DNA of 64,000 nt, from the NCBI RefSeq assembly GCF_000311785.1, contig NZ_HE978542.1:62001-126000 (forward strand), read 5' to 3'. Of this stretch, positions 4,810 to 22,498 are shown one piece after another (the first letter of the stretch is position 1; each line of letters begins with the position of its first letter). The position numbers and the translations under genes were made by a program. The DNA is from Brevibacillus massiliensis (GTDB lineage Bacteria; Bacillota; Bacilli; Brevibacillales; Brevibacillaceae). A model generated the notes under the pieces. It saw nothing but the letters and a program-made list of their open reading frames with translations. It did not search any database and had not been told where the DNA came from.

Positions 4810-4941
4810 TAATAGAACTATTCCGAAAAATCAACACTTCTTCCGCATGTACTTCCCGCAGGCGCTGGTACATATTTGGGCGTTCCTTCGCTGGCCTTGT
4901 GCCATACATTGATATATACCTAGTTGCGAGGGGATGAATAC

Positions 4942-5439
4942 GTGAAGCGAAAGAAATTATCGACCCTTGTCAATCATGTGTACCCGGCAAACAGCAGCCT
5001 GCATCCGTTGAATTTTTTTGTCCCGCTGGTAGAACAGGTAAAGAATGGTGTCGTGTCAATCGTTACAGCCGGAAAAACCAGTTCGTCCGACCTGAAGCGC
5101 CTCATCCACGAATTCTTGGGGGATGAATTGGAGGATGTGACGCAGCGCAATTTCGGTTCCGGATTTATCTTCCATCCCAAAGGGTATATCCTGACCAGTG
5201 AACACGTCGTAGCGAACAGTGAAACGATATTGGTAAAGCTGTGCGATGGCCGTGTCTTTCAAGCAAAGCCTGTCTACACGAATCAAACAAGGGATTATGC
5301 AGTCTTGAAAATAAACGCCGGCCCTCGGATTCAACCCCTTCCCTTGGGCAGCTCCGCCGAGACGAGAGTAGGAGAATGGGTGCTGAGCATCGGTGCTCCT
5401 ATGGGTCTGGAAAACTCCGTCACAGCGGAGTGCACATGA
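4942..5439 (+). CDS. HtrA-type (S1C, trypsin-like) serine protease, N-terminal part, interrupted by a mobile element
   Basis: I prefer GTG 4942 (GAGGGG about 8 nt upstream) over TTG 4924. The part before the break holds the first two triad residues, His88 (YILTSEHVV) and Asp118 (TRDYAVLKI). It is preceded by the fold-typical NFGSGFIFHPKGYIL and ends with the conserved GAPMGLENSVT. After Thr161 the sequence enters the element and stops after four foreign codons (AECT). No signal peptide or membrane anchor is visible, so the product is probably cytoplasmic. The piece alone lacks the catalytic Ser and cannot be an active protease. The missing 77 residues are at 9867-10100 in the same frame. A CATACATT at 4903-4910 resembles a sporulation sigma-E -10 box, but no matching -35 is seen at the right spacing. 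Confidence 0.9.
   Translation: MKRKKLSTLVNHVYPANSSLHPLNFFVPLVEQVKNGVVSIVTAGKTSSSDLKRLIHEFLGDELEDVTQRNFGSGFIFHPKGYILTSEHVVANSETILVKLCDGRVFQAKPVYTNQTRDYAVLKINAGPRIQPLPLGSSAETRVGEWVLSIGAPMGLENSVTAECT
5421..5425 (+). other. Left attachment site (attL) core
   Basis: CACAG within codons Val160-Thr161-Ala of the protease. Host sequence lies to the left and element sequence (CGGAGTGCACATGATC) to the right. The identical pentamer occurs at 9863-9867 in the same codon phase. Confidence 0.7.
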
Positions 5440-5465
5440 TCAGAGCAAAGCGGCCGGAACTGTTG

Positions 5466-5648
5466 CTATCTTTTTGCCGATTCGCTTTTCGGGAGCAATC
5501 GGGCGGCCAGCCTGTAAAACTCCTCCACTTCTTCCCGGGTTGGCTGTTTCGTCGGCGAAACGATGCGGATTTCACCGTATTTTCCCGCAAGCACCTTGAG
5601 GACGCGCCTTTGTTCCACGAGCTTCCCCTCCCGCCGTTTTCCCCCCAC
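5466..5648 (-). CDS. Small basic protein beside attL; candidate recombination directionality factor
   Basis: 60 aa, starting at GTG 5648 with GGAG 8 nt upstream. It is rich in Lys/Arg at the N-terminus (GGKRREGKLVEQRRVLKVL), has a middle strand-like GEIRIVSP, and a C-terminal helix PTREEVEEFYRLAARLL. I do not recognise the family. It is the only gene on the minus strand of the element and lies about 40 bp inside the left end. Small basic proteins of this size often serve as directionality factors for large serine recombinases (for example SprB of SPbeta, recalled as about 58 aa). That role is inferred from size, charge and location only. It could equally be an uncharacterised housekeeping peptide. 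Confidence 0.55.
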   Translation of the reverse strand: MGGKRREGKLVEQRRVLKVLAGKYGEIRIVSPTKQPTREEVEEFYRLAARLLPKSESAKR

Positions 5649-5760
5649 TTTATGATCTCCGCACTCGTCCTATGCGGGCGGTGCCGCACCAAATTCCCGG
5701 ATCATTTATACATTAACAAGTAGGAGTTGTTCGAGAAAGAACAGAGAGGATGTTGGATAC

Positions 5761-6867
5761 ATGGGGAAGCCTCATATCGGGATCCTGACTTACCGCAACG
5801 GTCATCGGTTTCAAGAGCCCGGATATTTTCGCCGGCTTATTTCCGAAGGACAAAAACTTGGCGCAACCGTCTTTTTGTTCTCCCACGAAGACGCCTTTGA
5901 GCAGAAACGGATGATTCGCGGCTTTTACCCCTCGGCAAAAGGCGGCTGGGAAAACAAGCTGTTTCCGTGGCCGGATGTGGTCATTGACCGCTGCCGCAAA
6001 GGGTCGCCGGGCTATCGCCAATTTCGTAAAAAAAAGCTGTTCCTCTACGCCAACAACACGTACACCAACAAATGGAATGCGACGCGGCTCTTTATGCAAG
6101 ACGATGCCGTGCAGCGCTGGATGCCGCACACCGTGGCCTATTCGCCGGAGCATCTCAAGGAAATGCTGAAGAAATACCGCCTGCTCTACATCAAGCCGGG
6201 CAATGGGACAGGCGGCCGCAGTATTCTGAAGCTGACCCGCACTGTCGAGGGATACACCGTGCTTGGCCGGGATAACAGGCTGGTCAAGAAAACAGCCCGT
6301 TTTCAAACCCTTCCGCCGCTGATTCGATGGTTGAATCGGTGGGTGAAAACCGAGCGGATCAGGGAAGGCAACTTTATGATTCAACAAGGTCTCGACCTTT
6401 CACTCGTTCCAGGCCGCGCTACCGACACCCGCCTGCTCATCCAAAAAAACGAGTTGGGCGAATGGGACATCACTGGACTTGGAATCCGCATCGGCGGAAA
6501 AAACAGCTCCACTTCCAACCTGCACGGCGGCGGCAAAGCCGTCCCCTTCGAGAGCTTTATGGTCCAGCGCTTCGGTCCGGAAAAAACCAAGTCCATCCTC
6601 TTGGAATGCCGCGAGCTGGCCCGACAAGTCGTCCAGACGATCGAACGCCACTTTGGCCCGATGATGGAATTCGGCTTGGATATCGGCATTGACGTAAACG
6701 GTCGCATCTGGCTGATCGAGGTCAATCCCAAGCCCGGCCGGGAAATTTTTAAGCGGATAGGCCGAATGGACCTGTACCGCCGTTCGATTCAACGTCCTCT
6801 CCTGTACGCCCTGTACCTTTTGCAAGCGTCCAAACGCCCCCCGCTGAACCGGGAAAACGCCGGATGA
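5761..6867 (+). CDS. YheC/YheD-family ATP-grasp protein (spore-coat associated)
   Basis: 368 aa, starting at ATG 5761 with GAGAGGATG upstream. The N-terminal third (GILTYRNGHRF...) and the central KYRLLYIKPGNGTGGRSI segment match the YheC/YheD group. The ATP-grasp metal/ATP residues are in MMEFGLDIGIDVNGRIWLIE and VNPKPGR near residues 300-325. Family members of Bacillus are described as endospore-coat-associated; the substrate ligated is not established. There is no signal peptide. The gene is cargo of the element, 112 bp after the small minus-strand gene, and is followed by a strong terminator, so it is its own unit. Finding a spore-related protein inside the element is indirect support for a link to sporulation. 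Confidence 0.88.
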   Translation: MGKPHIGILTYRNGHRFQEPGYFRRLISEGQKLGATVFLFSHEDAFEQKRMIRGFYPSAKGGWENKLFPWPDVVIDRCRKGSPGYRQFRKKKLFLYANNTYTNKWNATRLFMQDDAVQRWMPHTVAYSPEHLKEMLKKYRLLYIKPGNGTGGRSILKLTRTVEGYTVLGRDNRLVKKTARFQTLPPLIRWLNRWVKTERIREGNFMIQQGLDLSLVPGRATDTRLLIQKNELGEWDITGLGIRIGGKNSSTSNLHGGGKAVPFESFMVQRFGPEKTKSILLECRELARQVVQTIERHFGPMMEFGLDIGIDVNGRIWLIEVNPKPGREIFKRIGRMDLYRRSIQRPLLYALYLLQASKRPPLNRENAG

Positions 6868-6887
6868 CAAAGACGTTCGAGCACTTT

Positions 6888-6913
6888 GCTCTTTCTTCGG
6901 AAAGAGCTTTTTT
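6888..6913 (+). terminator. Rho-independent terminator after the ATP-grasp gene
   Basis: GCTCTTTC (6888-6895) with a TTCG tetraloop pairs with GAAAGAGC (6900-6907), followed by six T residues (6908-6913). A textbook intrinsic terminator. Confidence 0.92.
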
Positions 6914-7062
6914 ACTGGGCCTTTTGTCCTGATTTCTCGTTGGGACTATGTGTTCAAATTCCTGGATGGAAAATTTTTAGCCCTTAATCCTCTGGAAATG
7001 CTGCTTTAAGATGGGAATAAGCCCAGAAGCAAGGGTAAACAACCACATCTAGGAGGGACAAC

Positions 7063-8034
7063 ATGACAAAACGAGATTGGGTAACACGATCAACGATGGC
7101 GATCATGCTGAGCGCATCCCTATTGATGTTCGCTGACGGCGGACAAGCTGTCTTTGCAGCAACCGCCCAAAAAGCCGATTTGTCTGACACCGTAGAGACG
7201 GCGTACGACCTGGTCGGCAAACCGTTCAAGAAGAATGCCGAAGGGCCTTCCGCTTTCGACACCGCCGGTTACATCCAGTACGTTTTCTCCCAACAAGGAG
7301 TGAAGCTGCCGGATAACATTCGCGATATGTACAACAAGGGAACGAAGATCAATACGGCTGACCTGCAGCCAGGAGATGTCGTCTTTATCAAGACAAGCCC
7401 AAGTTCCAGCCTCTTGAACTACGCCGGCATCTACGTCGGCAACGATACGTTCCTGTACGCCTCTGCGGGCAAACAAAAAGTGATTGAGCAAAGTCTCTCA
7501 AAAGTGAAGGATAAACTGGCCGGTGTGCGCCGATACATAGACATGGAGACAGAACAGCCCCCGGCAGAAAAACCGGCCGATCCGCCGAAAGACTCCGGAA
7601 CGGCAAAACCGGACAAGAACAGCGAAGCCTCGACCTTGGGGCAAAAGATTATCCTAACGGGTGAAAAGTACTTGGGCACACCGTATAAATTCGGGGCCAA
7701 GACAGGCAATACCAGCTCTTTTGACTGCTCTTCGTTCACCCAGTATGTCATGCAGCAAAACGGCATCAAGATCAGCCGCGGAGCCCGGGCCCAATTTAAA
7801 GACGGAAAAGAGGTTGACCGCAAAGACCTGCGCGTCGGCGACCTGATCTTCTTCTCCACAGAGCACAACATTAAAAAATACCCGGCCGGCTCGATCAACC
7901 GTATCGGCCACGTAGGGATTTACGCCGGCAACGGAAAAGTCCTGCACACCTATGGAAAAGGCGGCGTGAGATACGACACGATCGAAAAAGGCTGGTGGAA
8001 CGACCACTACGTAACGGCTGCCCGCTACTTCTGA
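7063..8034 (+). CDS. Secreted two-domain NlpC/P60 cell-wall hydrolase
   Basis: 323 aa, starting at ATG 7063 with AGGAGGG 6 nt upstream. A signal peptide covers about residues 1-33 (cleavage near QAVFAA). Two NlpC/P60 repeats follow. The first (about 40-160) reads SAFDTAGYIQYVF where the catalytic Cys should be, so it is probably inactive and may bind substrate. The second (about 195-323) has the intact SFDCSSFTQYVM Cys and the RIGHVGIYAGNG His region. A Pro/Glu/Lys-rich linker (about 165-190) separates them. Active family members cut the gamma-D-glutamyl-diamino acid bond of peptidoglycan stem peptides. It is element cargo, flanked by terminators on both sides, so it is transcribed alone. Confidence 0.92.
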   Translation: MTKRDWVTRSTMAIMLSASLLMFADGGQAVFAATAQKADLSDTVETAYDLVGKPFKKNAEGPSAFDTAGYIQYVFSQQGVKLPDNIRDMYNKGTKINTADLQPGDVVFIKTSPSSSLLNYAGIYVGNDTFLYASAGKQKVIEQSLSKVKDKLAGVRRYIDMETEQPPAEKPADPPKDSGTAKPDKNSEASTLGQKIILTGEKYLGTPYKFGAKTGNTSSFDCSSFTQYVMQQNGIKISRGARAQFKDGKEVDRKDLRVGDLIFFSTEHNIKKYPAGSINRIGHVGIYAGNGKVLHTYGKGGVRYDTIEKGWWNDHYVTAARYF

Positions 8035-8090
8035 TCCATATTGGCTGCCAAAACTGAAAAAACGCCTCTTTGCGAATACTCTCAGAAAAA

Positions 8091-8127
8091 GGAGATACCT
8101 TTTACCATAAAGGGATCTCCTTTTTTT
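8091..8127 (+). terminator. Rho-independent terminator after the NlpC/P60 gene
   Basis: An AAAGGAGAT...ATCTCCTTT hairpin with a central bulge precedes a run of eight T residues. It isolates the NlpC/P60 gene from the recombinase gene. Confidence 0.8.
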
Positions 8128-8196
8128 TCGTCCGGTGGCATGGAGTGGCACGGCGCCAGCGACGGATTCGAAACACATGGGGGAGGTGGCATACGC

Positions 8197-9804
8197 GTGT
8201 ACAACCGGCAGTTCAGTCCCCGGGCCTTGATCAAGCATCCAGTCGTCTACCTGCGGAGGTCGCGGGAAGATGCGGAGCGGGAAGTCCGTACCGGAGAGGA
8301 CACGCTCGCCATGCAGCGGGAAGTCATGGAACGGCTCTTGCGAGAGTACGGCCTGCCGTACGACCTGAAGGTGGAGATCGGCAGCGGCGACAAGATCGCA
8401 GCCCGGCCGATTTTTCAGCAGGTGCTGCACGATTTGCGCAGCGGCCTCTACGACAGTATCGCCGTCAAGGACATTTCCCGCCTGACGCGCGGGGATTTTA
8501 CGGATTACGGAACAGTCTACGACCTGATTTGCAGCAGGCGGATCTACATCATCACGCCTTACCGCCTCTACGACCCGGGAAACGCAAACGACCTCAGGCA
8601 AATCCGCTTTGAGCTGTTTTTGTCGCGGGAGGAGTTTGAAGTCATCCGCGAGCGGATGCAGGGAGCCAAGTACGCCTATGCGATGGCAGGGAAATTTATG
8701 GGCTCTACGCCCGCCCTCGGATACCTGTTCAATCCCAAAACACAGCACCTGGAGATCGCACCCCGGGAGGCTGAACTGGTCAGGCGGATCTTTGCGCTGT
8801 ACATCAACGGCCTGGGAGGAAAAGAGATGGGCTATCGCGCCATCGCTACCTTTCTCACCCGTTCCGGTGTGCCCTCGCCGCGGGGCCACGCCCGCTGGAC
8901 TCCGACCACGGTGAGAAAAATCCTGCAGAACCCCGTCTACGTGGGAGAGATTCGCTACAGGACCGGCTCCGTGCACAAGGGCGGGCGTTCTGACAGGGAG
9001 GAAGACGAACAGATCGTCGTCACCTCCGCCCACGAGCCGATCGTCAGCACAGAAGTCTTCGAGCAGGCACAGACCAAAGCCCGGCAGATGCGCAAACCCG
9101 CCACCCCGTTCGATCGCGAGACGAGCGAACTGTCCGGTCTGATCCGCTGCGGCAAATGTCAACGCGCCATGGTCAAACAGACTGCCAAGAGCAGTTACCA
9201 AAAAAAGGACGGTTCCGTCAGCCGCTACTATAAAGAGATGCTCTGGTGCACGACGGTCGGCTGCACCTATGTTTCCTACCGCGCCGTTGAAGATGCCATC
9301 CTTTTCTTTCTCCGGCAGCTGCCGGCGCTTTCCCCCTCCGAGCTGCGAAAGCACTGGTCCGCTCCGAACCCGACGTGGGGCCAGACAACCGCTGAAGATG
9401 AGTTGGCCCATCTCCTCCGGCAGCGCTCGGAGTGGGAGAAACGGCTCACCTTTGTCTACCGCAATTACGAGTCAGGCACGTATTCGGAACCTGAATTCAT
9501 CTCCCGCAGGGAAGAAGTCTGCAGCCAGATCCGGCAGATCGATCTGCTGATCTCCCGGCTGCGGCAGTCCGCTGACCCGGCAGCAATGGAAACCTGCGGA
9601 AGATCGGAGCGGCCAGCCCGACCTGTCTTCCTGCACGAGCTGTATCGGTCGCAGCAGGCTGCGGCGGCCAAAAACCGACTGCTGCGCGGATTGATCGAGT
9701 CAGCCACCCTGCGTGTTTCCGCAAAGGGCAGAGGGAGGAGACCGCCTGCCTTTCAGCTTGAGATCGCCTTTCGCCTGGCGGTATTATTCGGCGAATCCCT
9801 GTAG
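8197..9804 (+). CDS. Large serine recombinase (site-specific integrase/excisionase)
   Basis: 535 aa, starting at GTG 8197 with GGGAGGTGG 7 nt upstream; upstream codons back to 8041 run through a terminator hairpin and are not coding. The resolvase domain (about 1-150) contains [12 protein letters not shown] with the catalytic Ser, and [16 protein letters not shown] recombinase domain (about 170-290) has [33 protein letters not shown] and [18 protein letters not shown] zinc ribbon follows (IRCGKCQ ... LWCTTVGC), then a basic C-terminal coiled-coil region. Length fits the family (450-550 aa). It ends 58 bp from the right attachment core, as usual for these integrases and for SpoIVCA in the skin element. 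It presumably recombines the two CACAG sites. Confidence 0.95.
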
Positions 9805-9862
9805 CGGCCGCTGTTTGCACGGCAAGGCTCTTCTGTCTTTGGTGGGTACGTGTTGACTTTGC

Positions 9863-9867
9863 CACAG
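9863..9867 (+). other. Right attachment site (attR) core
   Basis: CACAG, same codon phase as at 5421-5425. Element sequence is to the left (GTGTTGACTTTGC) and host protease sequence to the right (TGGGAATTATC). Confidence 0.7.
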
Positions 9868-10100
9868 TGGGAATTATCAGTGCAAAAAACCGCCGGCTGC
9901 AGGTTTCCCGCCGCGCCTACGAGGAAATCCTGCAGACAGATGCGGCGATCAATCCCGGCAACAGCGGCGGACCGTTAATCAACCTGTACGGTGAAGTCAT
10001 CGGAGTAAACGCGTTTATTATTCAATCAAGCCAATCGCTCGGCTTTGCGATTGGAATAGATTCCTTAAAGCCTCATTTGCACAAATTTTTTCGCGAGTGA
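9867..10100 (+). CDS. HtrA-type serine protease, C-terminal part with the catalytic Ser
   Basis: 77 codons from GTG 9867 to TGA 10100. The first codons read [10 protein letters not shown], the strand that follows SVT in HtrA proteases. Then come [16 protein letters not shown] with the catalytic Ser (Ser194 of the rejoined protein), GEVIGVNAF and [12 protein letters not shown]. The His88-Asp118-Ser194 spacing of the joined protein (30 and 76) is almost the DegP spacing (30 and 75). There is no PDZ domain; the joined 238-aa protein is a bare protease domain. No ribosome site precedes GTG 9867, so this part is probably not made by itself. The key residues are intact, suggesting the split gene is still under selection, which a dead gene would not be. 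Confidence 0.9.
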
Positions 10101-22348: not shown

Positions 22349-22498
22349 CTAACCTGTTTCTTTGGACAAAGCGATCAAGTAGACGGTGTTTCCTTCCTGA
22401 TTCTGATTGAGCTGTTCTTCTGCCTGGCGCAGTTTTTCCAACTGTTCTGGCGTCAGAGCGGCAATTGGCAATTGATCCAGATGGTTGTACTTATCCAT
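22349..22498 (-). CDS. Small hypothetical protein
   Basis: 49 aa, starting at ATG 22498 (MDKYNHLDQLP) with GGAGG 6 nt upstream. A longer frame exists but this start has the ribosome site. The sequence is helical and polar (LTPEQLEKLRQAEEQLN) and ends with a hydrophobic strand VYLIALSKETG. It resembles short uncharacterised Firmicute proteins. No function can be assigned. Confidence 0.65.
   Translation of the reverse strand: MDKYNHLDQLPIAALTPEQLEKLRQAEEQLNQNQEGNTVYLIALSKETG

Follow-up and report, generated by a model that had tools for sequence, protein, structure and literature searches.

A serine-recombinase element splits an HtrA-type protease gene in Brevibacillus massiliensis and is predicted to leave it by precise excision

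A protease gene split between two CACAG cores

In Brevibacillus massiliensis, a 4,442-bp element with a large serine recombinase inside it splits the only PDZ-less HtrA-type protease gene of the genome into two pieces. We predict, with a probability of roughly 0.8, that the element leaves this gene through its own recombinase, likely in the mother cell, and that the rebuilt gene would encode an active protease of 238 codons; excision in the mother cell is the part that we infer. The window analyzed here is the whole 64,000-nucleotide stretch of contig NZ_HE978542.1, in which we located the following features of the split gene and its element:

4942 to 5421, plus strand: left (5') piece of the S1C protease gene, with the catalytic His and Asp; GTG start
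5421 to 5425, plus strand: CACAG core of the left junction, with the AC of 5422-5423 as predicted crossover
5466 to 5618, minus strand: 50-aa ORF with a good Shine-Dalgarno sequence, candidate recombination directionality factor (tblastn)
5761 to 6867, plus strand: YheC/YheD-type ATP-grasp protein (PF14398, E 5.5e-78)
7063 to 8034, plus strand: NlpC/P60 cell-wall hydrolase with two domains (PF00877)
8194 to 9804, plus strand: large serine recombinase (Resolvase, Recombinase, Zn ribbon; PHROG 95 integrase, E 1.2e-81)
9863 to 9867, plus strand: CACAG core of the right junction, with the AC of 9864-9865 as predicted crossover
9864 to 10100, plus strand: right (3') protease piece, NPGNSGGPL with the catalytic Ser

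CACAG occurs at 5421 and again at 9863, in identical codon phase. Joining the two pieces from CACAG to CACAG yielded an ORF of 238 codons plus a stop, with the other two frames closed. The Pfam Trypsin_2 match is divided between the left and right pieces, and the joined product, whose best PDB sequence match was HtrA (1l1j, E 4.5e-54), carries the His-Asp-Ser triad in a trypsin fold, with H88, D118 and S194 invariant among five aligned homologues. These results reproduce what the initial annotation had read from the window, namely a serine-recombinase element splitting an HtrA-type protease gene, CACAG in the same phase at both junctions, a 238-codon join and the HtrA spacing 88-118-194; the recombinase, which it had placed at the right junction, indeed ends 59 bp ahead of the right core. 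We found no C-terminal PDZ domain, as in full HtrA/DegP, in the 238-aa joined product, and the Brevibacillus homologues among the matches listed carried PF13365/PF00089 only. Neither protease piece reached the HtrA/Deg NCBIfam cut-offs.

The window genome has a single strong match to the short PDZ-less protease. We considered an intact paralogue that might substitute for the split gene and rejected it; the second HtrA-like match in this genome has a 412-codon frame.

We compared the four ORFs of the element with PHROGs and found no phage structural or replication genes: the recombinase matched integrase and DNA invertase families, the NlpC/P60 domains matched tail, head, lysis and unknown families, and the remaining two ORFs had no match. 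The best NCBIfam match of the recombinase was XisF, at 85 bits and thus far below the cut-off of 375. Rfam at gathering thresholds gave no match in the window.

Two insertion sites across the Brevibacillaceae

We surveyed all 39 Brevibacillaceae genomes of the collection searched; the order is represented there by the same 39. Both protease pieces were present in every one, with one strong match per genome. The gene was split in 31 of them and whole in eight (G002, G027, G029-G031 and G034-G036). The initial annotation had proposed a search of relatives for an uninterrupted homologue and had named intact genes with a different junction sequence as evidence against its reading; the eight continuous genes carry the expected junction residues, LENSVTAGIIS, which rules out a chance match between the two halves. 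No stops were found within the aligned pieces, and all 30 splits with both pieces on the same strand rejoined to full-length ORFs with an intact signature.

The splits fall at two sites. Site 1, after GSP and before LGLEN, is used in 29 genomes, and site 2, between SV and T, is that of the window and is used in five: 26 genomes are split at site 1 only, two at site 2 only, namely the window and G028 (a match to the Brevibacillus dissolubilis record L005), and three at both (G032, G033 and G037). Recombinases related to that of the window (51-56% identity) lie at the same codon in four relatives. Between types, the 29 site-1 and five site-2 recombinases share 25-30% identity with the reference of the other type, counted over the aligned parts. 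The two crossover sites are served by different recombinase types.

The elements of the window and of site 1 span 2.1-4.4 kb, and the site-2 elements of the other relatives are larger. Site-2 cargo varies: the window element has YheCD and NlpC/P60, those of G032 and G033 have Kdp genes, and that of G028 has type II/IV secretion-pilus genes; a YheCD gene is also present in 24 of the 29 site-1 elements. The Kdp potassium-system genes lie on the plus strand of the stored loci (L099 4583-11302 in G032, L100 4235-8673 in G033), with Pfam matches to KdpD in both elements and to KdpA in that of G032, and they would leave the mother cell upon excision. The secretion or pilus genes of G028 (L095 4711-6920, minus strand; T2SSE and T2SSF by Pfam) lie between the protease pieces. 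We also observed a host gene of about 50 aa close to the protease in many relatives' loci; its window counterpart is at 22355-22498 on the minus strand, about 12 kb off, so the neighborhood differs in the window.

In the three doubly split genomes, a site-1 element of 2.2-3.1 kb and a site-2 element of 6.4-10.2 kb isolate GSPLGLENSVTA between them, with 27 nt separating the two crossovers (a "micro-exon"). Contamination of these assemblies is listed as 7% for G032, 9% for G033 and 1% for G037. Removing both elements in silico restored ORFs of 240, 242 and 241 codons, respectively, each with an intact signature. A 27-nt coding piece shared by three genomes would be hard to explain unless both elements are removed, and to us it argues strongly, at the level of sequence, that the DNA has to be joined.

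Two arrangements depart from this pattern. In G028 the protease pieces lie at 1075-1551 and 13073-13300 of L095 with the right piece inverted, so excision would not rebuild the gene; recombination between its att sites would leave 11.7 kb in place but inverted, and would give an in-frame product of 236 residues. We found no inverted repeats of at least 8 bp in the scanned stretch that would explain the flipped piece, and the arrangement may be a local misassembly. In G167, from another family, the protease orthologue is split at site 1 with its right piece on another contig (L107, L118). Next to the end of the left piece are a third serine recombinase and phage-tail-like genes, named by eye, and site 1 is here occupied by a prophage-like insertion. 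The protease of G228 lies at a contig end.

Crossover position and candidate directionality factors

We scored the symmetry of the predicted circle junctions around each possible crossover dinucleotide. At site 1 (n = 29) symmetry peaked at TC with a mean of 0.66, against 0.38 for the next best position and a background of 0.28; at site 2 (n = 5) it peaked at AC with a mean of 0.52, against 0.35 and 0.27. As means over the 29 and over the five elements, the predicted circle junctions are thus imperfect inverted repeats about the shared dinucleotide. The window crossover is best placed, on these grounds, at the AC of 5422-5423 and 9864-9865, which would make GTCACAGTGGGAATT the predicted excised junction and GTCACAGTGGG the rebuilt join.

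All five site-2 elements contain an SD-led minus-strand ORF of 50-56 aa, close to the left end in four. A tblastn search with the 50-aa ORF of the window gave E values of 3e-5 in G028, 0.003 in G037 and 0.4 in G033; the ORF in G032 resembles it by position and loose alignment only. In 27 of the 29 site-1 elements, an HxlR-type winged-helix protein is encoded ahead of the recombinase. Both the 50-aa ORF and the HxlR protein are candidate directionality factors; for scale, SprB, the accessory protein of SPbeta, has 58 aa (PMC4191935).

Promoter and link to sporulation

Upstream of the protease gene we found two promoter-like elements:

4874 to 4885, plus strand: GerE-box-like motif ATTTGGGCGTTC
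4903 to 4911, plus strand: sigma-K-like -10 element CATACATTG

A RWWTRGGYNNYY-type box followed 29-30 nt downstream by CATANNNTR is present in 33 of the 39 family genomes, against a mean of 0.02 and a maximum of 1 in shuffles. The genomes that the pattern misses are G011, G022, G026, G033, G035 and G038, in which the TTGGGC core is kept, as judged by eye. We take RWWTRGGYNNYY to be the GerE consensus. In the open-licence literature searched, the only paper found with this sequence gives it for the cyanobacterial regulator PedR (PMC13421787), and the GerE consensus is not spelled out in the passages of PMC517825 examined. Among published sigma-K promoters, a -10 element such as CATATGTTA is typical (PMC4750369); it ends in TA, whereas those of the protease genes end in TG.

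We then examined a sample of 398 Bacilli genomes that includes 36 of the 39 family genomes. At an E value of 1e-25 or below, the left piece was found in 92 genomes, every one of which also has SpoIVA; in the whole sample, SpoIVA is present in 268 of 398. For the 56 protease-positive genomes outside the family, the association with SpoIVA has P = 9.7e-13 with phylogeny ignored, and 54 of these 56 genes have open frames of at least 238 codons, their right pieces not individually checked. On this distribution the protease family appears to track spore formers, with SpoIVA in all carriers in the sample. The window genome itself has genes matching SpoIVA and sigma-K and an 81-codon GerE/LuxR-type frame. 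That sigK is itself split in this genome was ruled out by its 240-codon open frame. The conserved GerE-like and sigma-K-like promoter and the restriction to SpoIVA-bearing genomes together support a probable late mother-cell role for the protease gene.

A sigma-E-like motif (at most two mismatches) precedes 9 of the 29 site-1 recombinases (shuffles: mean 0.38), a weak signal. Upstream of the window recombinase we found no recognizable sporulation promoter, sigma-E included.

Selection on the pieces and history of the two sites

We calculated dN/dS for pairs with dS between 0.05 and 1.0, among genomes split at site 1 alone and among intact ones. Across these 26 genomes, the left piece had a median dN/dS of 0.050 (45 of 325 pairs usable) and the right piece a median of 0.000 and a pooled value of 0.024 (39 of 325 pairs). 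Intact genes had medians of 0.102 on the left and 0.012 on the right, with few usable pairs (4 and 3 of 28). The pieces of site-1-split genes are under strong purifying selection. In these 26 split relatives the halves are thus strongly conserved and show none of the decay that the initial annotation had named as evidence against its reading.

The tree of the 29 site-1 recombinases agrees with that of the host gene (Mantel r 0.957, a value reached in 0 of 2000 permutations), which indicates that site-1 elements are largely vertically inherited. The intact gene of G002 belongs to a clade of nine genomes (support 100); the eight others all have site-1 splits, and the clade is nested within a larger split one. 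Over 132 positions, G002 shows 4 differences to the predicted excision product of G005 and 4 to 9 to those of the remaining seven, and carries no scar; from its sequence, it looks like a natural product of scarless excision. In a metagenome, a 980-base contig encodes a 150-aa ORF (P0036) that matches the joined product of the split genomes G021 and G025 at 100% identity through site 1; it may come from an excised copy or from a strain free of the element. The record of a laboratory Brevibacillus brevis, P0079, consists of the left piece alone.

The two genomes split at site 2 only both cluster with intact ones in the tree, the window with the three genomes G034-G036 (support 98) and G028 with the four genomes G027 and G029-G031 (support 99). 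The history of site 2 may be one of recent gain or of repeated loss. Given these intact sisters and the total of five site-2 elements, long-term maintenance is shown for site 1, not for the site of the window.

Proposed mechanism and alternatives

In the reading that we favor, the recombinase would pair attL and attR, likely aided by a small directionality protein for which the 50-aa ORF at 5466-5618 is the candidate. Excision would yield a chromosome reading GTC-AC-AGTGGG at the join and a circle. The rebuilt gene would be transcribed late in the mother cell from the conserved GerE/sigma-K-like promoter, and the split copy would stay in the germ line because the mother cell dies. For the family as a whole, we think it probable that the Brevibacillaceae rely on obligatory DNA splicing of a spore protease, with two serine-recombinase "DNA introns" at neighboring codons, at least one of them inherited vertically across several genera, and in three species a gene in three pieces with a 27-nt micro-exon that would be fused only upon removal of both elements in the mother cell.

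The element might instead excise precisely as a mobile island, stochastically or under stress, and spread between cells, its link to sporulation being incidental. The variable cargo of the site-2 elements resembles that of mobile islands, the gene is whole in the sister species of the window, and a prophage-like insertion occupies site 1 in G167. Set against this are the largely vertical inheritance of the site-1 elements, the late mother-cell appearance of the host promoter and the confinement of the gene, within the sample, to SpoIVA-bearing genomes, and we consider a mobile island unlikely. Still harder to sustain is plain insertional inactivation, by which the split gene is dead and its pieces persist by chance or after a recent insertion. 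The intact sister species would allow the insertion in the window to be recent, but the pooled dN/dS of the right pieces of site-1 splits, the aligned pieces free of stops and the 27-nt piece kept in frame in three genomes all oppose it, and inactivation at site 1 is disfavored. It is just as improbable that the two pieces are translated separately and come together as a protease while the DNA stays unjoined. The left piece does have its own promoter and start, and in 3 of the 29 site-1 genomes the right piece lies within an SD-led ORF (among ORFs of 30-150 aa) that starts inside the element; yet 3 of 29 is a small share, and the 27-nt piece of G032, G033 and G037 could hardly work as a polypeptide of its own.

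Comparison with known gene-splitting elements

The interpretation that the window element follows the logic of skin-type gene-splitting elements was borne out for every feature that sequence can decide. Like skin, SPbeta, vfbin, gin and yin, it is intragenic, has a short core in the same phase at both ends and encodes a large serine recombinase, and its att site is, in the group means, an imperfect inverted repeat about a dinucleotide. Close in kind is gin, in gerE of Bacillus cereus ATCC10987, which is likewise non-phage, with a serine recombinase and an imperfect-inverted-repeat recombinase site (PMC5595907). It has a 9-bp core, its gerE is rebuilt in frame during sporulation, and it needs the accessory factor GirX. 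However, gin is an element of 31 genes with three recombinases, and the gene that it splits encodes a regulator (PMC5595907), whereas the elements of the window and of site 1 are of 2.1-4.4 kb and target a protease; unlike gin, the site-1 elements are inherited across genera. SPbeta, in spsM of Bacillus subtilis, also uses a large serine recombinase, with SprB, and excises precisely in sporulation, but is an active prophage (PMC4191935), whereas the window element showed no phage structural genes. The yin element of Clostridium botulinum likewise splits a sporulation-protease gene, yabG, and has a serine recombinase; it is a prophage, in one strain, in a gene for a cysteine protease (PMC10747680), while the gene here encodes an S1C serine protease and is split in 31 of 39 family genomes. 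Heterocyst interruption elements are also excised in development, from cyanobacterial genes in heterocysts, and 10 of the 87 interrupted genes in that study held more than one (PMC4874684); they are a precedent for several elements per gene, but not for a sporulation gene.

In the open-licence literature, which leaves most subscription journals outside, we found no published report of this protease-splitting element and none of several elements within one sporulation gene, among the matches listed. What is new is the target gene, the small non-phage elements inherited across genera, the two sites per gene and the 27-nt micro-exon. One gene is targeted at two codons by different recombinases, and in another family site 1 is also the target of a prophage-like insertion. 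The sporulation gene-splitting elements named in the literature examined occur as prophages or islands in some strains or species, which leaves their benefit to the host open. Here, in the majority of a family's genomes, small non-phage elements divide a gene whose pieces are preserved by selection, which makes the question of a service to the host testable in culturable Brevibacillus.
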